From Halogeometricum rufum (GTDB lineage: Archaea; Halobacteriota; Halobacteria; Halobacteriales; Haloferacaceae): 64,000 nt of DNA. The notes beneath the pieces are model-generated. The model was not told where the DNA came from, did no database searches, and saw only the letters and a program-made list of their open reading frames with translations. The stretch is from positions 496,001 to 560,000 of the forward strand of contig NZ_FOYT01000001.1 of NCBI RefSeq assembly GCF_900112175.1, given 5' to 3'. Shown piece after piece: positions 31,000 through 44,038 of this stretch. A program made the position numbers and the translations under genes. Position 1 is the first letter of the stretch; each line of letters opens with the position of its first letter.

Positions 31000-31071
31000 G
31001 GGCTCGTAGATCAGTGGCAGATCGCTTCCTTCGCAAGGAAGAGGCCCGGGGTTCAAATCCCCGCGAGTCCA
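31000..31071 (+). tRNA. tRNA-Ala(CGC)
   Basis: 72 nt beginning GGGCTCGTAGATCAGTGG. The anticodon stem-loop CTTCC-TTCGCAA-GGAAG gives anticodon CGC (alanine). T-arm GGGGTTCAAATCCCC; discriminator A at 31071; CCA not encoded. The 3' end serves as the left attachment site of the integrated element: 31059-31075 recurs exactly at 43709-43725. Confidence 0.95.
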
Positions 31072-31075
31072 CTCG
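31059..31075 (+). repeat. Left attachment core (tRNA-Ala 3' end)
   Basis: CCCCGCGAGTCCACTCG covers the end of the tRNA-Ala T-arm and acceptor strand plus 4 nt of flank. An identical 17-mer is at 43709-43725 and a 13-nt partial copy at 43628-43640. With the integrase at the right end this defines the element. Confidence 0.75.
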
Positions 31076-31251
31076 AATTTTAAACAGTCACGAACTGCGA
31101 CAGTAGAGACGCCGTTCTCCGCGAAGTCGGTAGACTGCACCCGATTCTCTACTGGAAATAGAGGGGTTCAAAATCGATGGAATCTCTTAACAGCGTCGCC
31201 GTCCCCGCCGTCCCGCGGTCTGCGGAGTGAAACCGGGGGCGAGTCGGCGTG

Positions 31252-31404
31252 ATGCACCACGTCGAGTGCAAGCAGTGCGACTTCGAACGCGACGCGCACG
31301 ACTGGCTCGCCGCGGAGATCGTCGCGGAGGACCACCGCGACCGAGAGGGCCACGTCGTCACCGCGAGTCAGCCGGACGGTTCGCTCCTCGGGAGGTACGC
31401 ATGA
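31252..31404 (+). CDS. Small zinc-finger-like protein, first gene of the element
   Basis: 50 residues starting MHHVECKQCDFERDAHDWLA. A CxxC pair at residues 6 and 9 with two His at 2-3 and further His near 29 and 34 could bind zinc. Its stop overlaps the next start (ATGA 31401-31404), which argues that it is a real gene. TATA-like CTCTTAACA (31183-31191) lies upstream. No family recognised. Confidence 0.5.
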   Translation: MHHVECKQCDFERDAHDWLAAEIVAEDHRDREGHVVTASQPDGSLLGRYA

Positions 31405-31973
31405 GCGTCGAGACGAACGTCCCGGTCGAGGAGATGGAGCGAGACGAACTCGAAGCCAGGGTTCGGACGCTCGAAACCCGGTTGCAGGACCTCGAAGAAC
31501 GGGTAGAACGGAACAGCGAGGGCACCGTCTCGAAGACCGCACTGAACCACCTCCTCGACGCGCTGACGAACGCCGAGATAGACGACTACCGAGACGACCC
31601 GATGCGTCTCCGCGAGGAAGTCGCCGAAGTCGGGTCGATGGTCTACCGGCACGAGTCCATCGTCGAGGAACAGCAGTCCGCGGTGGACGACCCGATGGGC
31701 GAGAACTGGTCGAAGATCGTCGAGGCGGCGAACAACCTCGCTGGGACGGCCGGTCACACGCGCCCGGACAACCACGTCGCCCTGTACGGGTCGGACATCG
31801 TACAGGCGACGGGTCACACGGAACGCTACGCGCTGAACCTCATCGAGAAGTTCGGACAGGACGACTCGAAGAAGGGCGTGACGTGGCAGCCGCACGAACC
31901 GGCACAGCCGTCGAACAACCACAGTGCGAAGCGGAAGGCTCTGCTCGTCGATCTCGACGTGTGGGGCAACTGA
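31401..31973 (+). CDS. Coiled-coil protein of the provirus left end, function unknown
   Basis: 190 residues. Residues about 8-42 are a heptad-rich coiled coil (MERDELEARVRTLETRLQDL). The centre contains NNLAGTAGHTRPDNHVALYG followed by a helix-rich stretch, and the C-terminus is polar with an N/S/Q linker. Proteins of this look are frequent at the ends of haloarchaeal integrated elements. A DNA-binding or partition role is possible but unproven. Confidence 0.6.
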   Translation: MSVETNVPVEEMERDELEARVRTLETRLQDLEERVERNSEGTVSKTALNHLLDALTNAEIDDYRDDPMRLREEVAEVGSMVYRHESIVEEQQSAVDDPMGENWSKIVEAANNLAGTAGHTRPDNHVALYGSDIVQATGHTERYALNLIEKFGQDDSKKGVTWQPHEPAQPSNNHSAKRKALLVDLDVWGN

Positions 31974-31988
31974 GCGTCCTCGACGCTC

Positions 31989-32031
31989 GCCCGTCCCGGT
32001 GGACACGCGGGTTCGACTCCCGCGACGGGCA
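31989..32031 (+). other. tRNA-like minihelix (acceptor stem plus T-arm)
   Basis: GCCCGTC (31989-31995) pairs perfectly with GACGGGC (32024-32030). Directly inside lies a perfect T-arm, GCGGG-TTCGACT-CCCGC (32007-32023), with a canonical T-loop, and A follows as discriminator. An 11-nt linker replaces the D-arm and anticodon arm. It starts 16 nt after the coiled-coil gene. It could be a truncated tRNA captured during integration or a functional tRNA-like element. Confidence 0.55.
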
Positions 32032-32032
32032 T

Positions 32033-32055
32033 GGGGTGAACTCGGAGTTCACCCC
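32033..32055. promoter_or_regulatory. Perfect 10-bp inverted repeat GGGGTGAACT/AGTTCACCCC
   Basis: GGGGTGAACT-CGG-AGTTCACCCC forms a perfect 10-bp hairpin or operator with a 3-nt spacer. The half-site recurs directly at 32086-32095 and partially further right (GTTCATCACC and GGGTGAAC near 32096-32120). It may be an operator, integrase arm site, replication iteron, or a terminator for the upstream genes. Confidence 0.55.
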
Positions 32056-32413
32056 GTCCGGCCCGGATAGCCCGGCCGGTTGCGGGGGGTGAACTCGTTC
32101 ATCACCTCGTTCGGGTGAACGTCGCCCTCGACGGAGGCAAGCAAACGACGCCGCCGTCCCGCGATTCCGTGCTTGCACTCGCTGCACGCACGCAAGCAAC
32201 TCTCCGCTACTGTGGGGTGCGTCTTTTCGTGCGGTTTTCGTGCGGTAGAGTGGTTGTTTCGGCCGGTTTCGGGAGGTGTGGGTTTTGCTGAATTGGGGTG
32301 ATGAAGTTGTTCACCAGTCTCGTCATTTCACATATATTGAGAGTGTCTATTAGTGGTGATTTGGGTGTGTCTGATAAGCGATATCATATTGTGTGTGACA
32401 TAGTACCAATAGC
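32056..32413. other. Non-coding control-like region of the provirus
   Basis: This stretch holds no supported gene. It contains further GGTGAAC-type half-sites (32086-32095 and about 32096-32120), GCAAGCAA direct repeats (about 32137 and 32191), and then a sharp drop in GC from about 32220. The AT-rich part includes several possible TATA elements (for example CATATATTG at 32331-32339) for the gene at 32414. Confidence 0.45.
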
Positions 32414-33094
32414 ATGGTGTCAGAGTATCTCTTGGGGGTCATAATTGGTGGTGGAATTGGGTTGCTGAGTTCTCTGTTCGTGAGTCACGTGCAGAGAAAA
32501 ACTATCGAGCTTCAAATTAAAGAAGAAACCAAACGGCTCCATAGTGAATATTTTCTGAGTGCAAAAGTGGATGCTTTAGTCAAACTCACTAAAGAGATAG
32601 ATTCTATCTATAACTTCTATAACATTCATATCAAATGGGCATTAGAAGGAGAATTAGCTAGTGACGAATACTACTCAGAAGTAATCGGGGCGGGTCTATC
32701 GTTCCCAAGTACTATTGAGGAAACACGGTTGTTTCTTGATTCTTCTCTTGAAGAAGCAGTAGATAATTTCGCACAACAAGTAATATTAGCCGATCTATTG
32801 CTTCGAGACCTATCGAAACTAGATCTTGATCAGGGCCAGAATAGCAGCAATCGACTAGAGAAATCGCTTCGAGAGTTGCTAGATCTCGATATTCCTCCAG
32901 ACGCACGAGATATTCTGGATAGGGAGCTCGCCAAAAGAGACCCTGAAGATCCAAAAATGCCCTCTCTGGATGTGCTCGTGGCCGTATCAAATGCTGAATT
33001 CCGGATTGCTGAGTTCAATGAGGCATACGATCAGTGTAGAACACTATTGAAACAGGAGGTACAAGGTCCACTAGAAATATTCGACGAAAATTAA
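32414..33094 (+). CDS. AT-rich cargo gene: membrane-anchored coiled-coil protein, unknown
   Basis: 226 residues. An N-terminal hydrophobic helix (about 4-24, YLLGVIIGGGIGLLSSLFVS) is followed by a charged helical region (HVQRKTIELQIKEETKRLHSE). The rest is helix-rich and acidic with no recognised motif. Codon use is AT-rich, unlike the structural genes beside it, indicating separate acquisition. It is convergent with the structural operon, ending 4 nt past its last stop. An immunity or superinfection-exclusion role is possible but unsupported. Confidence 0.6.
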   Translation: MVSEYLLGVIIGGGIGLLSSLFVSHVQRKTIELQIKEETKRLHSEYFLSAKVDALVKLTKEIDSIYNFYNIHIKWALEGELASDEYYSEVIGAGLSFPSTIEETRLFLDSSLEEAVDNFAQQVILADLLLRDLSKLDLDQGQNSSNRLEKSLRELLDLDIPPDARDILDRELAKRDPEDPKMPSLDVLVAVSNAEFRIAEFNEAYDQCRTLLKQEVQGPLEIFDEN

Positions 33095-33333
33095 TTCTCA
33101 GACAGCTTCTCTGTTTGATCTACCTCTGCAGGTGTAACTACTGATTCCAATCTCTCAACAGATCCAATTAAACCATCATCCGTCTCGACTCGGTCGTCCC
33201 CAAACAGCACCCGGTCGTGATCCTCGACGAGTTCCGTCCGCTTGTCGATCCGACGGACGAGCCAGCCGATCCAGCCGAGGACGACCGGCACGGCGGCGAT
33301 GAAGACGTTCATCACGACGTCGAGGAGCGTCAT
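33091..33333 (-). CDS. Small membrane protein at the end of the structural-type operon
   Basis: 80 residues. An N-terminal transmembrane helix (MTLLDVVMNVFIAAVPVVLG) is followed by a charged cytoplasmic-type tail. Its start overlaps the upstream stop (ATGA 33330-33333). In tailless membrane-containing haloviruses such short one-helix proteins are commonly virion membrane proteins; this is inference from position. Confidence 0.6.
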   Translation of the reverse strand: MTLLDVVMNVFIAAVPVVLGWIGWLVRRIDKRTELVEDHDRVLFGDDRVETDDGLIGSVERLESVVTPAEVDQTEKLSEN

Positions 33334-33722
33334 GCGCCACCTCCGGCGAGTAGTTCGAGCAACGGACGGAGTAGCCACAGGACGAGCAGCAAGACGACGC
33401 CGACCAGGAAGAGCGTCGTTCCCATCTCGCCCTGGTGCGACTCGCCCTCCTCGTCGACGGCGACATCCGCTACCGAACCCTCGGTTCCCCACGCGGTCGG
33501 ACCGAACACGTCGATGGTGTCCCCGTCGTGACCCGACCAGGCTACGTCTATCACCGTATCGACCGGCCCGCGAGACGCCGCTTCGTCCACGTCGCCCGCG
33601 AGATGGTCGCCCACGCCCGCCCAGTCGCCTTCGCCGGCCGCCTCGGTCGCACGCCCGACCGCTTCGTCCGTCGAGCCTGCGAGGTGGTCAGCGACGCCTG
33701 CGACGGTCTGATACAGTCCCAT
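33330..33722 (-). CDS. Small protein with C-terminal transmembrane helix (virion membrane protein candidate)
   Basis: 130 residues. Residues 1-60 contain a repeated motif (VADHLAGSTDEAVGRA and GVGDHLAGDVDEAASRG), two DHLAG units about 27 residues apart. A hydrophobic helix lies near residues 101-124 (TTLFLVGVVLLLVLWLLRPLL). It lies 3 nt after the previous gene. Candidate internal-membrane protein of the virion. Confidence 0.6.
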   Translation of the reverse strand: MGLYQTVAGVADHLAGSTDEAVGRATEAAGEGDWAGVGDHLAGDVDEAASRGPVDTVIDVAWSGHDGDTIDVFGPTAWGTEGSVADVAVDEEGESHQGEMGTTLFLVGVVLLLVLWLLRPLLELLAGGGA

Positions 33723-33725
33723 CGG

Positions 33726-34415
33726 TCACGCCTCCGTGGAGAGGACGCCGAGCAGCACGACGACTAGGCCGACGGCCGCCGCGACCACGCCGGCGGAGTA
33801 GCCGCCGACCGACAGAGAGTCGGCGTCGAGGCCGTCGAGACGAGCGTTCATCGCCTGCGCGAACGCCTGCATCTGTGCTTGCATCTGCGCCCGGTAGTCG
33901 TCGAGGGCGTCGGTCGGGATACTCGGCATCTCCGGCATCGTCGGCGTCTGTTCGTTCGAGGACGACCCGCCGGACGTGGTGGTCGAGCCGTCGCCGTCGG
34001 CGTCGATTCCGTCGTCCGTGACGAACCCGTCGCCGTCGGACGCCGAAATGGTGCCGTCGTCGCCTATCTCGACGTTCACGGCGTCGCCGCCGCCCGAGAA
34101 CGTCCCGTCCGACCCGCCGTCGTCGCCGGTGGTCGGATCGTAGGTGACGGTCGTGTTCTCGTCGTCGTCGTTCCGATCGCTGATGATGACCCCGCCGCCG
34201 CCGGTGTTCCCGCCGGTCGAGATACCGCCGGAGTCGCTGTCGTCGTCGTAGTCGAGGCCGTCGTCTCGCTCGCGCGTGACCGAGCCGTAGCCCAGGTCCA
34301 CGCCCACGTCGTCGTCGTTCGACGAGGACGAGCCGTCGCCTCCGCTGCTGCTACCGCCGGACGAGTAGTCGCCGCCGGTGAGCCGATTCATGTACTCTGA
34401 GTAGGATTCTCCCAT
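33726..34415 (-). CDS. Gly/Ser/Asp-rich protein with C-terminal transmembrane helix
   Basis: 229 residues. The N-terminal two thirds is low-complexity (GGSSSGGDGSSSSNDDD, then several DGDG stretches). About 160-200 is a helix with MQAQMQAFAQAMNARL repeats, and a transmembrane helix near 205-225 (GVVAAAVGLVVVLLG) ends the protein. It resembles virion proteins with a flexible stalk on a membrane anchor. SH1-type viruses also encode a Gly-rich repeat protein in this position; homology is not established. Confidence 0.6.
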   Translation of the reverse strand: MGESYSEYMNRLTGGDYSSGGSSSGGDGSSSSNDDDVGVDLGYGSVTRERDDGLDYDDDSDSGGISTGGNTGGGGVIISDRNDDDENTTVTYDPTTGDDGGSDGTFSGGGDAVNVEIGDDGTISASDGDGFVTDDGIDADGDGSTTTSGGSSSNEQTPTMPEMPSIPTDALDDYRAQMQAQMQAFAQAMNARLDGLDADSLSVGGYSAGVVAAAVGLVVVLLGVLSTEA

Positions 34416-34419
34416 TCTA

Positions 34420-34734
34420 TCACTCTCCTATCGTCTCGCCAGTCAGAATCCGATACAACACGTCTATCTGCGCCTGCGTATCGCCTGCGCTCCGCGCGTC
34501 AGCGAACGCTCGCTTCGTCGTCGAGCCGACGCGGTCCCGTCGGACAGGCTCTTTCGAGAGGGTAGACGAACGGAACTGACGGACCGTCTCGTCTGCCTCC
34601 CCGTAGTCTCGACTCCCGAGGACCGACCGGATGTCGGATACGCGGGGTGCGTCACCCGACGGTGACGCGCCTTCCTCGGCGAACAGTTCTAACAGCGCGT
34701 TCAGCCGTTCCTGTGTCTCTTGAGTGCGTCTCAT
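34420..34734 (-). CDS. Small soluble protein of the structural-type operon, unknown
   Basis: 104 residues, charged and helical (MRRTQETQERLNALLELFAE). No motif recognised. It is translationally coupled to the spike-like gene by ATGA (34731-34734) and followed 4 nt later by the Gly/Ser-rich gene, so it is part of the same transcript. Confidence 0.55.
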   Translation of the reverse strand: MRRTQETQERLNALLELFAEEGASPSGDAPRVSDIRSVLGSRDYGEADETVRQFRSSTLSKEPVRRDRVGSTTKRAFADARSAGDTQAQIDVLYRILTGETIGE

Positions 34735-35231
34735 AGTGTGTGCGTGTGCTGCGGTAGTCCGACGATGTGGAGGGCACCGTTGTTCACGCTCGCGTCCTGC
34801 GAGCTACCGTTCTGGTTGTCGATGGTGAACCGAATCCGCGTGACCGCCCGCCCGGAGAAGTTCACCACCTTCCCGTTCCCCTTCGACATGGAACCGGACC
34901 ACACCGTGCTGAAACCGCTCCCGTCGTCAACCTCGACGCGGGAGAGGTAGGTGTCGTTCCAGCTTGTCGAGTAGTCGAAGCGGATTCCGTCGGCGAAACC
35001 CCCTGCTTCGACGGTGAACGACCCGGTTCCTCCGCCGCCGGACACGTTCGAGACGCTTCCGCTCCAGGTCGATTGCTCCTGGTAGCCGCCACCGCGCGAG
35101 GACGAGTTCGTCTCGCTCGGTGCGTCGAACGCCGACGGCGGTTGGCCGCCGAGGGTCGCGGCGTCGATCTGTCCGTCCGCCGCGGCGCGGGCGTCCGCGT
35201 CGGTGTACGGCGGACCGGCGAAGTCACTCAC
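34731..35231 (-). CDS. Spike- or fibre-like virion protein candidate
   Basis: 166 residues from GTG 35231, which overlaps the upstream stop by 8 nt. SDFAGPPYTDADARAAADGQID at the N-terminus is the 'YTDADARAA' attachment motif often seen in haloviral fibre and spike proteins. The rest is a Gly/Ser-rich beta sandwich (SGSVSNVSGGGGTGSFTVEA) ending GLPQHTHTL; a His-Thr-His terminus occurs in some phage fibres. A host-recognition role is inferred. A longer frame from 35276 exists but covers the preceding gene's end. Confidence 0.5.
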   Translation of the reverse strand: MSDFAGPPYTDADARAAADGQIDAATLGGQPPSAFDAPSETNSSSRGGGYQEQSTWSGSVSNVSGGGGTGSFTVEAGGFADGIRFDYSTSWNDTYLSRVEVDDGSGFSTVWSGSMSKGNGKVVNFSGRAVTRIRFTIDNQNGSSQDASVNNGALHIVGLPQHTHTL

Positions 35232-35568
35232 CGGCCCACCCCCCGCCGAGTCGGGCCTGCGTGCCCTTCGGGTCACTGAAGACCACCTTGTCGATCTCCC
35301 ACTTGTCGAACGACCCGGTCCCTCCGGCGAGCGGGACGGTGAACACGTCTCCGCCGGAAGTGTGGACTTCCATCATCACGTCGCCCGCGGCGGTGATGAT
35401 GAGTTCCTGAATCGTCTCCGCGGGGTTCAGCGAAACGGGATAGGTCGTTCCGTCCTCGTCGAACGCACCGCCGTTGGGGTAGTTGTCCGTCTCCATCGTC
35501 CCCGTCGCGTTCGTCGCGAGCGTTCCGCCGGAGCCGCGGACGGTCTGACTGAACTGCTCGACGCCCAT
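35224..35568 (-). CDS. Beta-rich structural protein candidate
   Basis: 114 residues (MGVEQFSQTVRGSGGTLATN). Predicted mostly beta with Gly/Thr-rich loops and ITAAGDVMMEVHTSGGDVFTVPLAGGTG in the centre; no family recognised. It starts directly at the previous stop and overlaps the next start by 8 nt (35224-35231), which suggests stoichiometric expression with the spike-like protein. It may form a complex or vertex component. Confidence 0.5.
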   Translation of the reverse strand: MGVEQFSQTVRGSGGTLATNATGTMETDNYPNGGAFDEDGTTYPVSLNPAETIQELIITAAGDVMMEVHTSGGDVFTVPLAGGTGSFDKWEIDKVVFSDPKGTQARLGGGWAGE

Positions 35569-35991
35569 TCAGAACCACCCCGCGACTCGCTCGACGATTC
35601 CGACGGCGGCGCGTTCGGTGCCACCGGCGTAGTCGAGGGTCATGTCCACCGCGTAGTCGTAGCCGTTCGACCCGTCGGTGTTCTCCACCTCGACGCCGAC
35701 GACTTCGCCGTCCTCGACGCCTTCGCTCGCGTCGAACACCCACAGGTCGTTGTCGCCGTCCACGTACTCCTTCCCGCGGAAGTTGACGAGTTCGACCCGT
35801 CGCCCGCGGTCGGTGCCGTCCTCGACGAACGGAACGACGTGCAGCGAGAGGCGCGGCCCCTGGTAGAACCGGACCTTCACCTCTTCGACGGTGCAGTCCT
35901 CGGAGACTTCGAACGTCTCCGTCTCGGTGTCGCCGGGGTTCACGTTGCCCGCGAAGCGGACGCTCTCCCGGCGTTCGTGTGTCTCAGACAT
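35569..35991 (-). CDS. Second small major-capsid candidate (single beta-barrel type)
   Basis: 140 residues. VRFAGNVNPGDTETETFEVSEDCTVEEVKVRFYQGPRLSLHVVPFVEDGTDRGRRVELV alternates strands and turns as in a jelly-roll, and the end is hydrophobic-amphipathic (GIVERVAGWF). It lies directly after the larger capsid candidate, as the paired capsid genes do in the SH1/P23-77 virus group. The assignment is from size, order and predicted strand content only. Confidence 0.45.
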   Translation of the reverse strand: MSETHERRESVRFAGNVNPGDTETETFEVSEDCTVEEVKVRFYQGPRLSLHVVPFVEDGTDRGRRVELVNFRGKEYVDGDNDLWVFDASEGVEDGEVVGVEVENTDGSNGYDYAVDMTLDYAGGTERAAVGIVERVAGWF

Positions 35992-36015
35992 GAAAAATCA
36001 CCTCCGTAGGAGGGG

Positions 36016-36519
36016 TTAGTTCGAGACCTCCGAGTAGTAGAGCCGAGCCTCGGAGTTCGCCGGGTCGACCTCGACGCCGTCCGAACCGGCGTCGGGGAAG
36101 ACGCGGAACTCCAGGTGCCGACCGGGCTTCGCGAACGGCGCGATGGCCGCCATGATCGGCCGGTCGGTTCGGTCGCTGTTGAGGGCGTCCGCCAGGTCAC
36201 CGAGGTTGCCGACGACGAACGACGCGAGAACGCGGCGCTGGTCGGAGTCGGTGATGGCGACGATGAGGTCACCGTCGATGATGTCGCCGGAGGTGCCCGA
36301 CCCGTTGCCGGAGGCGACGAGCTTCGCGTGGATGAACGCCTTCGCGTAGTCGCGGACCTGCGGCCCGTGACCGGGGAAGAGCTTCTTGTCCTGTGCGACC
36401 TGCTTCGCCCAGATCGTGTTCTCCTGTCCGGCCTTCAGCGTCACCTGGTCGAGCTGCGACGCGACGACAGAACGCTTCTGTCCTTCAGCGAACAGCGGGG
36501 GGTACTGCTTCATCTCCAT
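36016..36519 (-). CDS. Major capsid protein candidate (single beta-barrel type)
   Basis: 167 residues. The region GHGPQVRDYAKAFIHAKLVASGNGSGTSGDIIDGDLIVAITDSDQRRVLASF has the look of the small capsid subunits of SH1/SNJ1-type viruses, followed by DRTDRPIMAAIAPFAKPGRHLEFRVFPDA. It is the second gene of the leftward operon, 3 nt after a one-helix membrane protein and next to a divergent ATPase operon, matching the conserved capsid block of that group. A structure-based comparison is needed for certainty. Confidence 0.5.
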   Translation of the reverse strand: MEMKQYPPLFAEGQKRSVVASQLDQVTLKAGQENTIWAKQVAQDKKLFPGHGPQVRDYAKAFIHAKLVASGNGSGTSGDIIDGDLIVAITDSDQRRVLASFVVGNLGDLADALNSDRTDRPIMAAIAPFAKPGRHLEFRVFPDAGSDGVEVDPANSEARLYYSEVSN

Positions 36520-36522
36520 GAT

Positions 36523-36720
36523 TCAGACCCCCGGAACCGACACTTCGTCTTCGTCCACGCCGGCCGCGTTCCGGGCCTTGTTGTAGACGTACATCCCGGC
36601 ACCGACGACGCCCGCGGTGAGCGCGACGCCGACGGTAGCGGCTCCGAGGTTGCTTGCCGATTCTGCTGGATCGTCCGTATCGACCTCCGTACCGAGGAGT
36701 TCGAGCGGTATCTTCGCCAT
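36523..36720 (-). CDS. One-helix membrane protein heading the structural-type operon
   Basis: 65 residues with a transmembrane helix at about 24-46 (NLGAATVGVALTAGVVGAGMYVYNKA) flanked by an acidic N-terminus and a polar tail. A small membrane protein at the head of the capsid block is also typical of SH1-type viruses (VP12-like). Homology is unproven. Confidence 0.55.
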   Translation of the reverse strand: MAKIPLELLGTEVDTDDPAESASNLGAATVGVALTAGVVGAGMYVYNKARNAAGVDEDEVSVPGV

Positions 36721-36849
36721 TGCACTCGGTCGGTGGTCGGATATGGAAAAAGCAGGAAGTGTAGTGGACTACGCTTGGTGATTGAACTATTGAGAGTCCG
36801 ATACTGGTCGAATCTTTACATTCTCGGCTCTGTGAATGTAGGACACTCC
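36721..36849. promoter_or_regulatory. Divergent promoter region between the two virion blocks
   Basis: 129 bp separate the leftward structural-type operon and the rightward ATPase operon. AT-rich tracts near 36741-36752 (GATATGGAAAAA) and 36808-36822 (GAATCTTTACATTCT) are TATA candidates for the left and right transcripts respectively, 20-42 nt from the starts. Both blocks could be switched on together from here. Confidence 0.45.
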
Positions 36850-37053
36850 ATGATTGGGTATCCGACACTCGTTCTCGGCACCGTCGCCGCCTATCTCCGC
36901 GGCTCGGAGGAGACGCGCCCGTTCGTCCGCGGCGCGTTCGGCATCGGCGTCTTGGGCGAGTGTGGCGCACTGACCGGTATCGTACAGTTCACTCAGACGA
37001 CGGGGGCGACAGTCGCCTCGACGCTCTCTCACCTCGCGGGGATGGTCGCGTGA
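36850..37053 (+). CDS. Small membrane protein, first gene of the ATPase operon
   Basis: 67 residues (MIGYPTLVLGTVAAYLRGSE). One or two hydrophobic segments (about 3-16 and 28-60). It overlaps the next gene by GTGA (37050-37053). No family recognised. Confidence 0.5.
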   Translation: MIGYPTLVLGTVAAYLRGSEETRPFVRGAFGIGVLGECGALTGIVQFTQTTGATVASTLSHLAGMVA

Positions 37054-37505
37054 GCGGCACGTACGAACCCGAGAGTCCGACGGACCAGCAGTGTCGGCAC
37101 TGCGGACTCTACTTCCGCGCACAGGGGATTCACAACCACGAGTCCTCGTGCTACCTCGACGGCCACGACGCGATGATTCAGCCCGTGGACGAGAGTCGAG
37201 GCGAAGTCGAAGACCCGGAGCGAGTGGGGCGCACTGAGTCACCGACACTCGACGAACCGGACGAGACGCCCACGCCGGACCCCGAGCAGGCGGTAACCGA
37301 CGGCGGAAACCCCGCCCTCGACGCGCCGGAACCGGTCGCCACCGACGGCGGACAGGACGAATCGGCATGCCCGGACTGCGGGTCGAGGGACTACTTCGAT
37401 GCTGACGACGTGCGACGGGCGCGTGACTGCGGTGGCTCCGCCGCGGAACTCCTCGACGAACACGACCGAGTGTGCGCGGACTGCGGCGAGGTGTACGATG
37501 CCTGA
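37050..37505 (+). CDS. Zinc-finger protein of the ATPase operon
   Basis: 151 residues from GTG 37050. The N-terminal finger is CRHCGLYFRAQGIHNHESSC (C2HC spacing) and the C-terminal ribbon is CPDCGSRDYF ... CADCGEVYD. A long acidic, proline-rich linker (about 45-110) joins the two. This domain pairing suggests nucleic-acid binding, perhaps a regulator of late genes. It overlaps its neighbours at both ends. Confidence 0.6.
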   Translation: MSGTYEPESPTDQQCRHCGLYFRAQGIHNHESSCYLDGHDAMIQPVDESRGEVEDPERVGRTESPTLDEPDETPTPDPEQAVTDGGNPALDAPEPVATDGGQDESACPDCGSRDYFDADDVRRARDCGGSAAELLDEHDRVCADCGEVYDA

Positions 37506-37923
37506 GGACGGCGAGGCTCCGCCGTCGCTCTCCGACGGCTTCCCGATGGACCGTGACCCGTCGGCGGCAGTCGCGCCCGACCACGCGGCCGCAGAGGGCG
37601 CTCCCGAGGAAACCACGGTCGGTTCGTCCAACGTGCGGGAGATGCTGTTCTCGACGGAGCCTGAACGCTCCCTCGACGCCATCGAATCGCCGTGGGACCC
37701 CGACCGCGGCGGACCGACGCGCGTCTACCGCGGGTTGCAGAAGATGGCCGAGGTAGAGGGGATGCCCGCTATCTTCGACGTGGGCGTGGGAATCGCGGAG
37801 ACGGTCGTCTGGATCCAACGCGAACGGGAGGAAGCCGCGTCGGACCAGGAGGACGACGCCGACCAGGAGGGCGAGCAGTTCGACGAGGATCTGGGCGCAC
37901 TCGCCGGCGCGGGAGGCGTGTGA
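37498..37923 (+). CDS. Acidic protein upstream of the packaging ATPase, unknown
   Basis: 141 residues, overlapping the zinc-finger gene by 8 nt. N-terminal and C-terminal tails are disordered and acidic; the middle (VYRGLQKMAEVEGMPAIFDVGVGIAETVVW) is helical and partly hydrophobic, possibly membrane-associated. It overlaps the ATPase start by one base. No recognised family. Confidence 0.55.
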   Translation: MPEDGEAPPSLSDGFPMDRDPSAAVAPDHAAAEGAPEETTVGSSNVREMLFSTEPERSLDAIESPWDPDRGGPTRVYRGLQKMAEVEGMPAIFDVGVGIAETVVWIQREREEAASDQEDDADQEGEQFDEDLGALAGAGGV

Positions 37924-38561
37924 TGGACAGGTATCACTGCACGGTCGTCGGCGACTCCGGGTCGGGGAAGACGACGTTCCTCCGCGAGATGCACGACACG
38001 TTCCCCGGCCTGTCCATCTGGATCGACGACACGGACGCGGGCGGTATCTCCGGCCGCGACCTCGAGGACGCCACGACCGTTCGCTCGGCGTCGGAGGCGA
38101 GAGCAGCGACCGCTTCCCGTATCCGGTGGGTGTGCGACTCGGCGATGGAAGTCATCGACGCGGTGCGCGAGATAGCGCACACGTACCACGAGACGACGGG
38201 CTACCCCGTCCAGGTCGTCGTCGACGAGGCGCACCGGCACCTGCCCGACTCTGAGTCGAAGTCGTCGGCGTCGGAGAACACGCTGGCCGCGATGCTGCAC
38301 GAGGACCGAGACAAGGGCGTGAAGGTGGTGATAGCGTCGCAGGACCCGCAGGACTTCTACTACCCGCCGGTCAAGCAGTGCAAGTATCTCGTGTGGGTCG
38401 GCCCGCCCTCGACGTTCCACCGGGGGTTCATCCGCTACTACAACCTGAAGGACCTCGACGGCGGCGGGTTGCCGTCGGACCGCTTCGAGTACGCGGTGAT
38501 CCGTCCGACGGAGCCACCGCACGCGGTGTACCGCGGTGAGACGCGGGAGGTGTACGGATGA
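37923..38561 (+). CDS. Genome-packaging-type ATPase of the provirus (A32/HerA-like)
   Basis: 212 residues, the size typical of FtsK/HerA-clade packaging ATPases in tailless membrane viruses. Walker A is VVGDSGSGKTTF (residues 8-19). Walker B is VQVVVDEAH (96-104). MLHEDRDKGVKVVIASQDPQDFYYP contains the post-Walker-B sensor and candidate arginine finger. It would pump DNA through a vesicle or capsid vertex during assembly. It lies in a chain of overlapping genes (TGATG before, ATGA after), opposite the capsid candidates. Confidence 0.75.
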   Translation: MDRYHCTVVGDSGSGKTTFLREMHDTFPGLSIWIDDTDAGGISGRDLEDATTVRSASEARAATASRIRWVCDSAMEVIDAVREIAHTYHETTGYPVQVVVDEAHRHLPDSESKSSASENTLAAMLHEDRDKGVKVVIASQDPQDFYYPPVKQCKYLVWVGPPSTFHRGFIRYYNLKDLDGGGLPSDRFEYAVIRPTEPPHAVYRGETREVYG

Positions 38562-39040
38562 GCTTCGACGTGACCCGCTCCGACATGCGCCGCATCGACA
38601 AACACGCGCAGGGAGACAACGGCGAGTACGCCGAGCGACTGGTGGCCGCGCACTACGGCGTCGAACACGCGCCCGACGAAGCGTCGTGGTACGACTGCGT
38701 GAACCGCGACACGGGTACGAAGTTCGAGGTGAAGGCCGCGCAGACGATCATTGACGGTCGCGACGAGAGTTCGTTCGTGCCCGTCGAGGGGCGGTTCAGA
38801 CTGTGGAAGAGTCAAACTCGGTCGCTGGTCAACTCGGATGCGCAGAACACGGCGTGGTTCGTGTTCGTACTGCTGGACCGCGACGGGAGTCCGTTGGAGA
38901 TGCGTCGGATGCGTCCCTCGACGGTGTGGTCACTTGTGCAGGAGGAAGGTGGATGGTACGATTCGGGTCACGAGAAAGGAGAACAGAAGAAAATGTCTTT
39001 CTTCTACATATTCGGATCTGTTGAAAACGCCGACTACTGA
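38558..39040 (+). CDS. Nuclease-like protein with possible PD-(D/E)xK fold
   Basis: 160 residues. Core motif: D46 in YDCVNRDTG followed by FEVKAAQ (E57-x-K59), preceded by an acidic helix NGEYAERLVAAHYG, which matches the PD-(D/E)xK layout of restriction- and resolvase-like nucleases. QTRSLVNSDAQNTAWFVFVLLD is the fourth-strand region. It could be a packaging or repair nuclease. Coupled to the ATPase by ATGA. The last 25 codons turn AT-rich, marking the beginning of the cargo region. Confidence 0.6.
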   Translation: MSFDVTRSDMRRIDKHAQGDNGEYAERLVAAHYGVEHAPDEASWYDCVNRDTGTKFEVKAAQTIIDGRDESSFVPVEGRFRLWKSQTRSLVNSDAQNTAWFVFVLLDRDGSPLEMRRMRPSTVWSLVQEEGGWYDSGHEKGEQKKMSFFYIFGSVENADY

Positions 39041-39142
39041 TCGTTCATTGATTCTGTACGCAATACTCAGCGTATATTTTGCACCGCCGTTCTTTAAAAT
39101 TTCACAGGAATACTTTCCTTGGGTTCAGCAAACATGGCGAGT

Positions 39143-39820
39143 TTACAGCTTCCGTCGGTAGGCCGAAACAGGATCGTATTCCGTGAAATGCTTTCCAACA
39201 CCATAGTAATCGCCCTTAATACTGGAGCGATCCTCCATCGGACCTTCTAACCCAGTAGGTCTATTTGCCCTCGGCAATTCACCTGTTGAAATCGAATCAA
39301 TGACGGCATCGGAGATACGTAGCGCCGTGACAGCACTTTCCAAGATGGCTTCATACTCGCCATCATCAACGATTTGATTCGGTGGTAACTGGAAGTCCGG
39401 GTCGTCTATACCATAATACGCGAGTGTGTACATATTACCATACATCTCACACAAAAACATCAGCCTCGCCACCGCGCGGACATGTATTCGCTCAACGTCG
39501 CGTTCGGTAAAGGGACCCCGAACCATTTGAGGAAAGTCGAGATCAGTGACTTCGTCTGCAACAGCATTTAACAAATTTTTACCTGCATTAGACCCGGGAC
39601 TGATGCTATGGTCAGTTGGGTGATTTACTTCCATTAGCTTGAAGATTGACTTCGTGCTTTTCTCTATCGACCGTTGAGCATCGACAAAGCAATCAGCGTG
39701 GTTTATTTCCTCCCCTTCTCTGGTATACCGCATGACTGAATCTAGCTTGGATTCAGCCATCTCAAACTCTCCATGGGCTCTCTTGACCCGATTTCGATCG
39801 ATATCTGCCCTTATCTCCAT
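39143..39820 (-). CDS. AT-rich cargo gene, HEPN-like protein
   Basis: 225 residues. NHADCFVDAQRSIEKSTKSIFKLMEVNHPTDHS resembles the HEPN helical core with its conserved EK-K helix and His, and RDVERIH offers an Rx5H motif like the RNase site of HEPN toxins, although its position is not confirmed. HEPN proteins are frequent in defence and toxin-antitoxin systems. No antitoxin or MNT nucleotidyltransferase partner is visible next door. Codon use is AT-rich compared with the virion genes. Confidence 0.45.
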   Translation of the reverse strand: MEIRADIDRNRVKRAHGEFEMAESKLDSVMRYTREGEEINHADCFVDAQRSIEKSTKSIFKLMEVNHPTDHSISPGSNAGKNLLNAVADEVTDLDFPQMVRGPFTERDVERIHVRAVARLMFLCEMYGNMYTLAYYGIDDPDFQLPPNQIVDDGEYEAILESAVTALRISDAVIDSISTGELPRANRPTGLEGPMEDRSSIKGDYYGVGKHFTEYDPVSAYRRKL

Positions 39821-40134
39821 GTTTCTTAGTTATCTGAACAGTATCTATAACCCATTGTTTGTTCTTTGACTTACAGAAGTTAGGAGATTCAGTCACAGGA
39901 AAGACGCTGGAATCGATGGCCCACAAGCGCGTGATATTCTGATGAAAGCCCCAATCAATAGAGGTCTCAGCCTCCTGCTGCATACGTCCTCTGTATTCAG
40001 CACACAATTTACATAAGGTAATCAGAGTGCTTTAACAGAGCCATTTCTCCAATCTAGCACGCTCAGAATCTAGCCCCGGTATTCAATTTTTGGGACCCTC
40101 AAGATTATTAGAAAGTAACTTTTACTTGTTCGAA
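39821..40134. other. AT-rich spacer between two divergent cargo genes
   Basis: 314 bp. It holds likely promoters for the HEPN-like gene (AT-rich tract about 39830-39860) and the rhomboid-like gene (tract about 40087-40130, with GATTATTAG and TTTTACTTG). A minus-strand frame at 39762-40007 translates to a short protein containing WAIDSSVFP; it may be a decayed transposase fragment but is unsupported. Confidence 0.4.
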
Positions 40135-40809
40135 ATGAAGCAACTCAGCCGATTCCCTGAACCATTTTCTATTGATACTCTTGCCTCCGAACTTAGAGAG
40201 TATGAATCTCCCATTACTCTCTATCTGAGTACGGCGATCGCCACGATATTTACTGTACAGCTTATCCTCACTATTCAGTGGGGGTCACCATCTATCTACG
40301 CGACCACCGGCTTTCTATTTCTGAATGGGCCAGAGATTGCATGGATTTTGTCGCCACTCCTTCATCGAGGACCGTTTCATTTCCTCGCGAATATACTCTT
40401 GCTGCTCCTCATAGGGCGAGTTACCGAATCTCACCTGTCTAGAACGCGGTTCCTAGCACTGGCTGTTCTCTCTTCAATTATCTCAATAGCTGCGTTGGCG
40501 GCTTTTGCACTAGAATTTGGTTCCAAAGAATATGTTGCAGCGTACGGGATTAGTGGACTAGTTTTTGCTCTTCTTGGATTCAGCCTCGTTCATCTTCAAA
40601 TCCACGAGGAATGGAATGAACCGGATGCCTTAGTATATCTACTCGCAATATGTGCTGTTCTGCTAATCGTGTTTGAGGTGGGGAAGGTAATCATACTCCA
40701 AGATCCGCTTCAAGTCAACGCTGGTCATGTCTCTGGTTGGATCCTGGGTATCGTCTTCGCTTACGCTCAATCACAAGAACACTGTTCGGTTCTCAATAGA
40801 GCCTTCTGA
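40135..40809 (+). CDS. Rhomboid-like intramembrane serine protease (cargo)
   Basis: 224 residues with about six membrane helices. Rhomboid signatures are all present: HRGPFHFLANILLLL (H-x4-H-x3-N in helix 2), the catalytic serine in AYGISGLVF (GxSG) and the catalytic histidine in NAGHVSGW. Such proteases cut membrane proteins within the bilayer. ATG 40135 fits better than TTG 40090. The gene is AT-rich, unlike its surroundings, and was probably acquired with the element. Substrate unknown; it could act on neighbouring cargo or virion proteins. Confidence 0.7.
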   Translation: MKQLSRFPEPFSIDTLASELREYESPITLYLSTAIATIFTVQLILTIQWGSPSIYATTGFLFLNGPEIAWILSPLLHRGPFHFLANILLLLLIGRVTESHLSRTRFLALAVLSSIISIAALAAFALEFGSKEYVAAYGISGLVFALLGFSLVHLQIHEEWNEPDALVYLLAICAVLLIVFEVGKVIILQDPLQVNAGHVSGWILGIVFAYAQSQEHCSVLNRAF

Positions 40810-40861
40810 ATTCACTGTCGGGTGGGGGCTGGTTAACTAATTATTACTGTAGAGGGACTAT

Positions 40862-41638
40862 TCAGTTATCCTCGTCGTTTCCTGACAACCTAGCAATATT
40901 CAAAACCAGAACTGCTATGAACACTACTCCAAATATAATATCCAAAATTTCTAGAGATGATGCCGCAAATGCCGGAAGAATTGCCAATGGTTTGTTTAGT
41001 GGTTCGTATGTTTGTGCAGGGATGACTACATAGCTTTCTTCCACTACTATACGGAATTCAGTAATGAACCACTGTATTATACCTAGTCCTGTGATTTCAG
41101 CTAATCTGTACCAAGAATTTGGCTTGATTGGCCTGTATTCTCCGTATTGTCCCACTAGCCAGATGAAGAACCAAAGCGAAGCGAGTACTGTTCCTCCTGT
41201 AATTATGAAAGAATAAACAATCTCGTTTCTCTGTAGTATCGTCCAAACAAACGTTGATGCGACAAGCAGTAGTGATACACAAAGAATGACGAGGTCAGCA
41301 TTCTTCCAAGATTGAATTGAGGTCGCAAAGGAAGGCAACCCACCGAGATCTCGAAGTAGAACTCTGATTATCTCCACGGATAGGACTACTACGCCCAACA
41401 GTGCCCCAACAAACCCGTACTTGATAGCCCATATCGACTCAGCGATGGGTACTCGAGAGATATTTGTGATATAGATTGCAGTGGCCGCGAAAACACCAAG
41501 CACCACAAAGAGAGACGAAGTTGAATCGATGAACTCTGCGAGGGAGAAATATTCTATCTCCTCCTCTTGTTGTTCTGCATCTCTTGATGACCTATAACGC
41601 GTTGAGGGCTTCCCTTTCTCCGAATTCCTATTTCTCAT
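40862..41638 (-). CDS. AT-rich cargo membrane protein, unknown
   Basis: 258 residues. A polar N-terminus is followed by about six hydrophobic helices (about 40-60, 70-92, 112-134, 140-165 and 205-250 among them). No motif recognised. It is convergent with the rhomboid-like gene (52 bp between stops) and has the same AT-rich composition, suggesting that they arrived together. Confidence 0.55.
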   Translation of the reverse strand: MRNRNSEKGKPSTRYRSSRDAEQQEEEIEYFSLAEFIDSTSSLFVVLGVFAATAIYITNISRVPIAESIWAIKYGFVGALLGVVVLSVEIIRVLLRDLGGLPSFATSIQSWKNADLVILCVSLLLVASTFVWTILQRNEIVYSFIITGGTVLASLWFFIWLVGQYGEYRPIKPNSWYRLAEITGLGIIQWFITEFRIVVEESYVVIPAQTYEPLNKPLAILPAFAASSLEILDIIFGVVFIAVLVLNIARLSGNDEDN

Positions 41639-41804
41639 TCTCAGCCCTCACCTATGCAGTATTCTGTTGGGTAGCAACCGAACAAGGATTAAGAGCGTTT
41701 GGATTTCACTTTCACTTTCACTCCGCATCCATGGCTCGCATTGAAGTCCAAACAGACATTCAGTAATTCGTGCTGGTGTCGAGACCCGCAGGTGGCACTC
41801 CGGG

Positions 41805-42020
41805 CTAGTCGTCTTCCTCGACGCCAGTCAGAATCGAAGGATCGTCGATGGCGAGGCGCATGAGACGCCGCAGGGCTTCAGCACGCGACATGTCGAGCGG
41901 AACGACGCCGTCGAGCTGAGCCTGCTTGAGGGCGCGGTCGAAGTCGTCCAGCAACTCTCTATCGACCCGGGCAGAGATGTTGACCGCGTCACCGTCGTCA
42001 TCGTCGTAGGTGGCACTCAT
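41805..42020 (-). CDS. Ribbon-helix-helix regulator, leftward
   Basis: 71 residues from ATG 42020 (a longer frame exists up to 42065 but covers the operator). DAVNISARVDRELLDDFDRALKQAQ is the ribbon and first helix, and MSRAEALRRLMRLAIDD the second helix of a CopG/NikR-type RHH DNA-binding fold. It is divergent from another RHH gene across a palindromic region, an arrangement expected for a viral switch controlling the integrase operon. Confidence 0.65.
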   Translation of the reverse strand: MSATYDDDDGDAVNISARVDRELLDDFDRALKQAQLDGVVPLDMSRAEALRRLMRLAIDDPSILTGVEEDD

Positions 42021-42062
42021 ACGCCGTTGTAGTCTCTGACTCAATGAATAACCCTGTGCAGT

Positions 42063-42114
42063 CACTTAATCAATTATTGAGTGATATGCTCAGAAAGCTA
42101 TAAGTGATTAAGTG
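42063..42114. promoter_or_regulatory. Palindromic operator region between divergent RHH genes
   Basis: CACTTAATCA (42063-42072) is matched by its exact complement TGATTAAGTG (42105-42114). An overlapping near-palindrome (42063-42083, centred on AATT) carries the related half-site TTGAGTG. It lies 17-68 nt before the rightward RHH start and 43-94 nt before the leftward one, over both promoters. A binding site for one or both RHH proteins is inferred. Confidence 0.5.
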
Positions 42115-42130
42115 AATAAGCGGAGGACGA

Positions 42131-42310
42131 ATGGCTCTATCAGTAAACGTGACTATCTCGATGCCGCCGGAGATGGTCGAGAAGATAGACGAACAGGCGA
42201 AGAATCACGGGATGAGTCGCGCCGAGTACGTGCGACATCTCGCACGCGAGGCTCCGTCGTCGCCGTTCGACGCGCCCGCTCAAGAACTCACCACGAACGC
42301 AGAGGTATGA
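42131..42310 (+). CDS. Small ribbon-helix-helix regulator of the integrase operon
   Basis: 59 residues starting MALSVNVTISMPPEMVEKID. The strand VNVTISMPPEM and two helices (EKIDEQAKNHG, SRAEYVRHLARE) are a textbook RHH fold. Four small genes follow head to tail with overlaps, ending with the integrase, so this may repress excision or integration. Overlaps the next short frame as ATGA (42307-42310). Confidence 0.65.
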   Translation: MALSVNVTISMPPEMVEKIDEQAKNHGMSRAEYVRHLAREAPSSPFDAPAQELTTNAEV

Positions 42311-42417
42311 ATGGGGACCCACGAATGAAGCCTACAAGCAACCCCGAGGGTCCCGTTCTGAACTCGCGCACCCGCGCACGTAAGCGTACTGACTACGCTG
42401 GAGGGACGCGCCCGTGA
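42307..42417 (+). CDS. Very small basic protein (36 aa) within the integrase operon
   Basis: Starts inside the RHH stop codon and ends inside the next start (GTGA 42414-42417). The product (MNGDPRMKPTSNPEGPVLNS, then an Arg/Lys-rich tail) has no known family; it may be a recombination-directionality factor or simply a coupling frame. Confidence 0.35.
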   Translation: MNGDPRMKPTSNPEGPVLNSRTRARKRTDYAGGTRP

Positions 42418-42605
42418 CGATGGTCTGTGGCGAACCCATCACCGTCGTCACGAACGGCGTCGCGTGGTACACCGACGCGGGAAGCGACGCGACGGTCCGG
42501 CACGAGGGTCGGATCGAACTCTACGACGCGTACGTGCGTCTGTGTGACCCGGTCGGCGCGTCGTGGGTCCCGCGCGAGAACGTCGAGATGGTGAGCGAGG
42601 TATGA
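42414..42605 (+). CDS. Small protein upstream of the integrase, unknown
   Basis: 63 residues from GTG 42414 (ATG 42420 possible). VCGEPITVVTNGVAWYTDAGSDATVRHEGRIELYDAYVRL looks like a compact beta fold. It overlaps the integrase start by ATGA (42602-42605), so translation is probably coupled. No family recognised. Confidence 0.5.
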   Translation: MTMVCGEPITVVTNGVAWYTDAGSDATVRHEGRIELYDAYVRLCDPVGASWVPRENVEMVSEV

Positions 42606-43612
42606 GGGACCGCGAACTCGAACCGCTCGACCCCGAGGTGGCGGTGGAACAGTACCTCGACTCCCGCCGACCGAGCGTCACGGACTCGACGTACCGGAAC
42701 TCGAAGAACCGTCTCGGTCACTTCCTCGACTTCCTCGAAGAGGAAGAGATCGACGACATGAACGACCTCACCGGGCGGACGCTCTACAACTTCGTGGCGT
42801 GGCGCCGCGGTGACATCGCGCCCATCACGCTCCAGAAGCAACTCTCGTCGCTCCGCGTGTTCCTGCGGTGGGCCGCGGACGTGGAGGCCGTGCCGGAGGG
42901 ACTGGCCGAGAAAGTCCACTCGCCGGAACTCCCCGACGGCGCGGAAGCGCGGACCGTCGTTCTCGAAGAGGAGCGAGCGGAAGCCATCCTCGAACACCTG
43001 AACCGCTACGAGTACGCGAGCAGGCGGCACGTCTGTTTCTCGCTCCTGTGGCGGACGGGGATGCGTATCTCGTCGCTGCACGCCCTCGACCTCCAAGACC
43101 TGCGGCCCGACGACTGCGCCGTGGACCTCGTGAACCGGCCGGAGACCGACACCCGGCTGAAGAACGGGAACAGCGGCGAGCGCTGGGTGTACCTCGGTCC
43201 GCGGTGGTACCAGGTCGTCGAGGACTACGTGGACGCGAACCGCTACGACGTGACCGACGACCACGGCCGCGAACCGCTCGTGACGACGAAGCAGGGGCGG
43301 GCGCACAAGCTCACCGTCCAGAAGTGGATCTACTCGACGACGCGGCCGTGCATGATGCACGACTGTCCGCACGACGAGGACCCGCAGACGTGCGAGGCGA
43401 TGGAGGGCTACCAGCAGGCGAGCAAGTGCCCGTCGTCTCGGTCGCCGCACACGCTCCGCCGCGGAGCCATCACGTCGCACCTCCTCGACGGCGTCCCGCC
43501 GGAGGTTGCCTCCGAACGGATGGACGTCTCACTCGAAGTGCTGTACCGCCACTACGACGCTCGGTCGCCGGGCGAGAAAATGAACCAGCGGAAGAAGTTC
43601 CTACGTCAATGA
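42602..43612 (+). CDS. Site-specific tyrosine recombinase (integrase)
   Basis: 336 residues. The N-terminal SAM-like core-binding domain is at about 12-110. Catalytic residues: R155 (RTGMRISSLH), K230 (VTTKQGRAHK), H283-x-x-R286 (HTLRRGAI) and nucleophile Y318 (HYDAR). The region 250-276 carries Cys at 250, 255, 264 and 276, a zinc-binding insertion also seen in other haloarchaeal integrases. It would recombine the tRNA-Ala 3' end with attP; the right attachment repeats begin 15 nt downstream of its stop. Confidence 0.9.
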   Translation: MRDRELEPLDPEVAVEQYLDSRRPSVTDSTYRNSKNRLGHFLDFLEEEEIDDMNDLTGRTLYNFVAWRRGDIAPITLQKQLSSLRVFLRWAADVEAVPEGLAEKVHSPELPDGAEARTVVLEEERAEAILEHLNRYEYASRRHVCFSLLWRTGMRISSLHALDLQDLRPDDCAVDLVNRPETDTRLKNGNSGERWVYLGPRWYQVVEDYVDANRYDVTDDHGREPLVTTKQGRAHKLTVQKWIYSTTRPCMMHDCPHDEDPQTCEAMEGYQQASKCPSSRSPHTLRRGAITSHLLDGVPPEVASERMDVSLEVLYRHYDARSPGEKMNQRKKFLRQ

Positions 43613-43627
43613 CCCGAAATTCGCCAC

Positions 43628-43640
43628 CCCCGCGAGTCCA
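43628..43640 (+). repeat. Partial attachment core, copy 2
   Basis: CCCCGCGAGTCCA is identical to 31059-31071, the last 13 nt of tRNA-Ala. It lies 15 nt downstream of the integrase stop. Together with the 17-bp copy at 43709-43725, 68 nt further on, it indicates two nested ends. Confidence 0.65.
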
Positions 43641-43708
43641 TCTCCTTCCGTCGCTACGCTCCGTCAGTCGACGGACTCGCTCGCCCCCGTTCGCGTCGCT
43701 CACGGGGA

Positions 43709-43725
43709 CCCCGCGAGTCCACTCG
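43709..43725 (+). repeat. Right attachment core (17 bp)
   Basis: CCCCGCGAGTCCACTCG is identical to 31059-31075. Its longer match than 43628-43640 suggests that this is the outer, chromosomal-side att site. Confidence 0.7.
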
Positions 43726-43767
43726 CACTCCCTCGGCGTCGCTATCCCGTGCAGTCGTCCCGACCGA

Positions 43768-43956
43768 CTACCGACGCTCGTCGGTCGGCTTCTCGAAGAC
43801 GCGCCGGAGTTCGCCCGTCACGCCCTCCTGCCACTTCCGGCCGCAGTCGTCGCAGACGTAGTCGGCGCCGTCCGCGCCGTGGTCGTCGGCGTCGTCCATC
43901 GCCGCGCCGCAGTTGGGGCAGTCGGTCACGTGCAGAGCGAGAGCGCTCACGGGCAT
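43768..43956 (-). CDS. Small zinc-ribbon protein
   Basis: 62 residues from ATG 43956. A zinc ribbon CPNCGAAMDD...YVCDDCGRKW occupies residues 13-43, with a charged C-terminus. A longer in-frame extension up to 44205 is Arg/Thr/Ser-rich, overlaps the HNH gene in another frame and is probably not translated. It lies 83 nt after the HNH gene on the same strand. Confidence 0.55.
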   Translation of the reverse strand: MPVSALALHVTDCPNCGAAMDDADDHGADGADYVCDDCGRKWQEGVTGELRRVFEKPTDERR

Positions 43957-44038
43957 CAGTCTGGTGGGGGTCGGTTCGTCGTCGGTCCGCGACCGAGTGC
44001 GGTCGCTATCGGCGACTGGGGAACTCACGTCGGTGGAA

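Follow-up and report, generated by a model that had tools for sequence, protein, structure and literature searches.

A probable small temperate virus with a predicted single jelly-roll capsid protein, integrated in a haloarchaeal tRNA-Ala gene

Background

Isolated haloviruses with single jelly-roll capsids number a handful, and compact integrated relatives of these viruses have hardly been described. As a case study, we consider an element of 12.6 kb integrated in the tRNA-Ala(CGC) gene of Halogeometricum rufum, within a 64-kb window (C1:496001-560000 of the 4.19-Mb haloarchaeal genome; positions below are those of this window). There is good reason to regard this element as an integrated temperate virus of archaea, small and with a tailless icosahedral capsid, because of its insertion polymorphism, its repeats, the capsid-fold model, the kinship of its ATPase, its gene order and its conserved core. 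As such, it is a variant of the single jelly-roll kind of virus, ordinary as a tRNA provirus and unusual in its capsid type and compactness.

The nearest description is that of Halfvol2, a 12,275-bp tRNA-Ala provirus of Haloferax volcanii, whose circle was recovered from a virus stock and which was presented as a 'novel virus group' (PMC7911831). In this provirus, a coding sequence (CDS) bridges the integrase and a CxxC gene across attP and no likeness to known viruses was seen; its authors guessed at a lipid-enveloped virus and assigned no capsid protein (PMC7911831). Compared by published description only, Halfvol2 and the present element are alike in their tRNA-Ala site, their size of about 12 kb and the CDS that, once the circle is closed, joins the integrase to the CxxC gene, and we think, by analogy, that Halfvol2 belongs to the group described here. 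The paper naming Halfvol1 and Halfvol2 annotates HVO_0362, a SWIM zinc-finger protein, and HVO_0373 as 'provirus' (PMC11899642); both were taken as Halfvol2 genes because their tag numbers fall in the Halfvol2 region. In L027, one of the relatives described below, the gene adjoining the tRNA carries a SWIM-like C-D-C...C-A-H motif, and Pfam did not confirm SWIM. HVO_0359 and HVO_0360, which we take to be the EF-1-alpha and S10 genes, have counterparts in the window too, directly before this tRNA-Ala.

The Simuloviridae have two single jelly-roll major capsid proteins (MCPs) and episomal genomes of 16-19 kb, SNJ1 being a plasmid-like provirus (PMC12642351). Like the present element as we read it, SNJ1, HJIV1 and NVIV1 are haloarchaeal and temperate, with a packaging ATPase and the order transmembrane (TM) protein - small MCP - large MCP, the last standing where the element has its second predicted jelly-roll protein. 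However, they are circular 16-19 kb episomes with an HUH RepA and a larger large MCP, whereas the present copy is integrated, measures 12.6 kb and lacks a RepA relative, RepA being shared only by the relatives L021 and L022. The Sphaerolipoviridae (SH1, HHIV-2, HCIV-1, PH1) resemble the element in the predicted MCP fold and, for SH1 and HHIV-2, in an ATPase block divergent from the VP12-VP7-VP4 block; by contrast, they have linear genomes of about 30 kb with large spike genes and are not integrated. Proviruses related to SH1, such as HalaCibP1, are also known (PMC5332951).

In Archaeoglobus veneficus, a tRNA provirus of 9.5 kb, ArcVen-P3, has been suggested to be a simpler kind of sphaerolipovirus relative (PMC4158269). 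It is likewise small and tRNA-integrated, with an FtsK-like ATPase, a VP16-like capsid protein and ribbon-helix-helix (RHH) and zinc-binding genes, but it differs in its thermophilic host, 55-bp att repeats, split integrase of the SSV type and single recognised capsid gene. Finally, the pleolipovirus proviruses (Harhisp1, SNJ2) share the integrase family, tRNA integration and the bridging CDS, while having vesicle-type virions and unrelated structural genes. In 2025, the kingdom Helvetiavirae was transferred to the realm Singelaviria (PMC12714852). We place the element in no existing family because it fell short of the known ones in the features tested, namely MCP sequence similarity and genome size.

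Predicted structural genes and capsid fold

The 167-amino-acid (aa) protein was modelled with AlphaFold2 (AF2) from a 15-member alignment, and models were searched with Foldseek. It belongs to the following reverse-strand genes:

33091..33333, reverse: small membrane protein, N-terminal TM segment; relative in L024
33330..33722, reverse: membrane protein, C-terminal TM segment; kept in 10 elements
33726..34415, reverse: Gly/Asp-rich protein with C-terminal TM segment, putative virion membrane protein
34420..34734, reverse: small hypothetical protein; no family match
34731..35231, reverse: candidate spike or receptor-binding protein, variable; weak relative in L021; GTG start overlaps the neighbouring stop
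35224..35568, reverse: conserved 114-aa structural-type protein, possible minor capsid protein; 12-member alignment
35569..35991, reverse: second predicted single jelly-roll protein, 140 aa, at the large-MCP position; AF2 pLDDT 80.4, eight strands; Foldseek
36016..36519, reverse: MCP candidate, 167 aa, vertical single jelly-roll fold; AF2 pLDDT 90.8, pTM 0.88; Foldseek
36523..36720, reverse: 65-aa membrane protein upstream of the MCP, at the position of VP12 (SH1) or VP6 (SNJ1); TM segment; relative in 12 of the 12 elements compared

The best PDB matches of the 167-aa model were VP17 of P23-77, chains of SH1, HCIV-1 and HHIV-2, and VP16 of P23-77. Most of these matches are, to judge from chain length, the small MCP, and TM-scores with the archaeal viruses were 0.55-0.59; matches in BFVD include the SPV1 capsid protein VP4. 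The vertical single jelly-roll MCP that characterises Helvetiavirae and Halopanivirales is thus present here as a predicted structure only. The 140-aa model matched beta-sandwich domains, jelly rolls among them; birnavirus VP2, the capsid of a plant virus and P-domains of subtilases were among the matches. Because these matches mix capsid and other domains, the protein is likely, on its model, to be a jelly roll, and its capsid role is conjectural. Comparison by hhalign of both jelly rolls with known small and large MCPs and with each other gave nothing, nor did profile searches of PDB sequences with the 140-aa and 114-aa proteins.

In the reverse block, the TM protein comes first, followed by the MCP candidate and then the second predicted jelly roll, and a divergent forward block encodes the ATPase; SH1 and HHIV-2 have the same layout. 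The forward genes are:

37050..37505, forward: zinc-finger protein, start of the divergent ATPase operon
37498..37923, forward: conserved small protein upstream of the ATPase; kept in 9 elements
37923..38561, forward: HerA/FtsK-type ATPase, predicted genome-packaging motor; HerA matches; hhalign
38558..39040, forward: nuclease-like protein; PHROG 2095, E 1.2e-11; weak restriction-enzyme match; kept in 10 elements

By hhalign, the ATPase is related to the packaging ATPases of Halopanivirales (98%, E 2.5e-13) and is of their FtsK/HerA type. This homology lies within the HerA/FtsK class and by itself is no proof of packaging, so that the packaging role is a prediction. Together with the capsid fold, it gives backing to a viral nature that an earlier reading of the window (the original prediction) had only surmised.

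Integration site and right boundary of the element

The features that define the two ends are:

31000..31072, forward: tRNA-Ala(CGC), integration target; ARAGORN; Rfam RF00005, 68 bits
31059..31071, forward: attL core CCCCGCGAGTCCA, prolonged to 31075 in the 17-bp repeat of the original prediction
42602..43612, forward: tyrosine integrase, haloviral XerC/D-like type
43609..43627, forward: 5' part of the bridging open reading frame (ORF; 70 codons), which is completed only on excision to a circle, with its end at 31252
43628..43640, forward: attR core, integrase-proximal copy, most likely the true right boundary; empty-site comparison, unit tracking the host flank, bridging ORF
43641..43725, forward: conserved unit on the host side, with the second repeat copy (43709-43725) at its end; probably outside the element

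As originally claimed, the 3' end of the tRNA is duplicated exactly: the 17-bp repeat CCCCGCGAGTCCACTCG occurs at 31059-31075 and 43709-43725 and only there, even with 2 mismatches allowed, which is beyond chance in dinucleotide shuffles (0.07 matches expected; none of 100 shuffles gave two). No intact tRNA-Ala, which might have made the repeat unrelated, is present on the right side. The integrase recognised inside the right end is likewise genuine, with matches to Phage_integrase, Phage_int_SAM_1 and PHROG 1 (E 1.5e-29) and catalytic-type residues (R155, K187, H283, R286, Y315) that are invariant in six relatives.

Comparison of the tRNA-Ala locus with related genomes, which had been suggested as a check, revealed empty sites. 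In the congeners G358 and G392, tRNA-Ala is separated by about 650 and 730 bp, respectively, from the right-flank host gene used for this comparison (window ~43754-43967), and the element is absent in both; with relatives found in the same tRNA with the same repeats, this supports the proposal of a complete site-specific integrated element. In a third congener, G158, the same gap is about 760 bp and still holds some hundreds of bases similar to the integrase end of an element of this type; the piece behind tRNA-Ala (L039; G158:C8 ~486536-487300) is like the RHH gene and spacer region and is apparently the remnant of a lost provirus. The congener G391 carries at the same tRNA-Ala about 33 kb of other DNA (G391:C6; L092, L093), with the conserved unit retained at its far end.

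The right end at 43725 had been drawn about 81 bp too far out, and a third copy, of the 13-bp core (43628-43640), lying 15 bp beyond the end of the integrase gene, had been missed. Two core copies lie 81-83 bp apart behind the integrase in all six tRNA-Ala elements compared. A unit of the 43641-43725 type adjoins tRNA-Ala(CGC) at the element-free sites L036, L038, L039 and L048, and in G358, G392 and G391 the conserved unit adjoins the host flank. The relatives L027 and L029 are alike in flank and unit and differ in their elements, whereas L029 and L030 have similar elements with different flanks and units. In G158, the empty site predicted by joining at the inner copy aligns unbroken for 130 bp (94% identity). 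With closure of the circle at the inner copy, a single ORF (67-85 codons) spans the stretch from the integrase to the following gene in all six tRNA-Ala elements and in L024, integrated in tRNA-Ile; closure at the outer copy breaks this ORF in L026 and L028. Since the 81-bp stretch is present at element-free sites and travels with the host flank, and since only the inner join keeps the bridging ORF in every relative tested, we assign this stretch to the host side and reject the copy at 43709-43725 as the true attR. The right att is therefore most likely 43628-43640, which would make the element 31059-43640, or 12,569 bp per unit.

Units of 81-89 bp, bounded by copies of the tRNA-Ala 3' end and containing inner inverted repeats, are found beside tRNA-Ala(CGC) in several haloarchaeal genera, and L036 and L038 have three core copies in a row. 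Such a unit may have been left behind by repeated integration, or it may be kept as a multiple landing site.

Relatives among haloarchaea

Used as separate queries, the 167-aa protein and its profile both recovered 15 copies, which lie in 14 of 391 genomes (about 1 in 28), from 9 of 86 genera, and the MCP candidate is intact in every copy. Nine elements, including the present one, have matching repeats at a tRNA gene, which is Ala(CGC) in six and Ile, Lys and Tyr in the others. Five Haloferax relatives occupy tRNA-Ala(CGC) and have the same repeats; group members lie in tRNA-Ala in Hfx. mucosum, marisrubri, elongans and sp. Q22. The related elements measure 10.8-14.0 kb and are likewise variable where the present one holds AT-rich genes. 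Among 12 elements compared, a core (the small TM, 167-aa, 140-aa, 114-aa, C-terminal-TM, zinc-finger and small proteins, the ATPase and the nuclease-like protein) is kept in 8 to 12 and the integrase in 10.

Three copies are stand-alone contigs of 11.6-12.1 kb. Of these, L021 (NZ_CP089467, 11,599 bp) is complete and annotated as a circular plasmid of Halobacterium litoreum. The ends of L022 (12,074 bp) overlap by 48 bp, and in L023 (11,562 bp) a 13-bp overlap was seen by eye. L021 and L022 encode relatives of the SNJ1-type RepA (45% and 35% identity) and gave no integrase match. The ATPases of L021-L024 are of a second, divergent type; a genome-contig scan with the ATPase profile gave no relatives. 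Genome G159 has two group members, L024 integrated in tRNA-Ile and the 11.56-kb contig L023, which has an integrase and is possibly an episome. In one Haloferax genome that lacks the capsid gene, the group ATPase is present in shortened form (L120, G113:C19:179009-179494; profile positions 43-209), to judge from its sequence a decayed copy.

The integrase has a wider distribution. It is 43-58% identical to those of pleolipoviruses (Harhisp1, SNJ2, HHPV-4, HRPV-9), and only 4 of its 15 relatives in named genomes are accompanied by the MCP. Many named haloarchaea have close integrases (L100-L114, 51-61% identity), for the most part with no capsid genes. Being seen both with and without the capsid core, the integrase is an exchangeable module that the group has in common with pleolipoviruses.

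Left arm, accessory and regulatory genes

The remaining genes of the element are:

31252..31404, forward: small CxxC-motif protein (CKQC), first gene after attL; relatives in five elements
31401..31973, forward: coiled-coil protein, possible helix-turn-helix; weak coiled-coil matches; ATGA overlap with the preceding gene
32414..33094, forward: AT-rich accessory gene, N-terminal membrane segment; not common to relatives
39143..39820, reverse: AT-rich accessory gene; no family match
40135..40809, forward: rhomboid-family intramembrane protease, accessory; Pfam Rhomboid, 4e-16
40862..41638, reverse: multi-TM membrane protein, accessory
41805..42020, reverse: small regulator-like protein, divergent from the RHH gene; weak repressor match; kept in 6 tRNA-Ala elements
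42131..42310, forward: RHH regulator; Pfam RHH_1, 7.2e-07
42420..42605, forward: small gene overlapping the integrase start (ATGA)

The tight packing with short overlaps described for the whole element applies to 31252-39040 and to the surroundings of the integrase, but not to 39.1-41.9 kb (46% G+C) or 32.2-33.1 kb (43% G+C), which are AT-rich and loosely packed. The AT-rich block at 39041-41900, with the gene at 39143..39820, the rhomboid protease and the multi-TM protein, is not common to relatives and is probably recently acquired cargo. An anti-phage defence island was considered and found unsupported, PADLOC giving weak matches only.

Alternative explanations and significance

Several results tell against a temperate icosahedral virus. 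Scans of viral contigs with the MCP, ATPase and integrase gave no relatives, and tblastn of the MCP and ATPase in phage records returned nothing but a weak terminase match. The Foldseek E-values are moderate (5e-4 to 8e-3), and hhalign found no profile-level similarity between the MCP candidate and known single jelly-roll MCPs (probabilities below 1%). The 140-aa protein has a weaker model and is short beside the 232-291 aa of known large MCPs. No replication protein was recognised in this copy, and its excision, which we infer, was not observed.

A pleolipovirus-type provirus, that is, a pleomorphic membrane-vesicle virus using the same integrase and tRNA-Ala site, would account for the integrase identities given above, for TM segments in several virion-type proteins and for a bridging CDS at attP, typical of pleolipovirus proviruses (PMC7911831). 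It is nevertheless very improbable, as none of the element's proteins had a PHROG match to the pleolipovirus spike and membrane families; only the integrase, itself exchangeable, is shared, and a capsid-fold MCP and a packaging-related ATPase stand in place of pleolipovirus structural genes. An integrative plasmid or satellite with capsid-like genes, making no infectious particles of its own, would agree with the small size, the circular plasmid-like relatives and the want of recognised lysis or replication genes. To our knowledge, however, little has been learned about lysis genes in archaeal viruses as a whole, and over many genera one finds the MCP, ATPase, nuclease, TM protein and second jelly roll kept together with intact frames, as expected of a self-encapsidating virus. 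We therefore think a plasmid or satellite unlikely, the more so as SNJ1 is also a plasmid-like provirus (PMC12642351).

The element could also be a genuine provirus, now a defective remnant inactivated by AT-rich insertions, which would fit the unshared AT-rich genes at 32.2-33.1 and 39.1-41.9 kb and the failure to find a replication initiator. Yet all core genes are open and in order, the att repeats and integrase are intact, and the relatives, at 10.8-14.0 kb, are close to it in length and show variation there as well, so that inactivation seems unlikely. With intact integrase and repeats and circular relatives, it is plausible from the sequence that the element is still mobile.

For the temperate icosahedral virus that we prefer, the following life cycle can be proposed. 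The integrase would recombine attP with the tRNA 3' end and could excise a circle, in which the 70-codon ORF would become whole, running between integrase and CxxC gene and perhaps tying early genes to the integrase. The RHH gene and its divergent small neighbour would hold the lysogenic state. Upon induction, the left-strand block would yield the small membrane protein, the jelly-roll MCP, the second jelly-roll protein and other virion proteins, and the divergent block the DNA-packaging ATPase, with the AT-rich genes serving as exchangeable cargo. The virion, as predicted from the genes, very probably has an internal membrane, after SH1 and SNJ1.

We incline slightly towards a new family-level lineage of Singelaviria-type single jelly-roll viruses of 11-14 kb, in which the capsid core is paired either with a tRNA integrase or with an SNJ1-type RepA module, and which would explain Halfvol2. 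If so, the model archaeon Haloferax volcanii would carry an inducible member, and a 'novel' provirus group would be assigned a capsid type, with icosahedral rather than vesicle-like particles predicted. The size floor of this capsid lineage would then be about 11-12 kb, and the group would show how, around a single capsid core, integration and episomal maintenance replace each other in nature. It would also bear on the origin of viruses with two jelly-roll MCPs, because compact forms such as ArcVen-P3 have been proposed as ancestral.

A second tRNA-like sequence lies in the left arm, at 32006-32031 (CGCGGGTTCGACTCCCGCGACGGGCA). It resembles the T-arm and acceptor of a tRNA 3' half and is followed by a hairpin; no parent tRNA for it was found in this genome, and it may be the trace of a past host or of an alternative att site.

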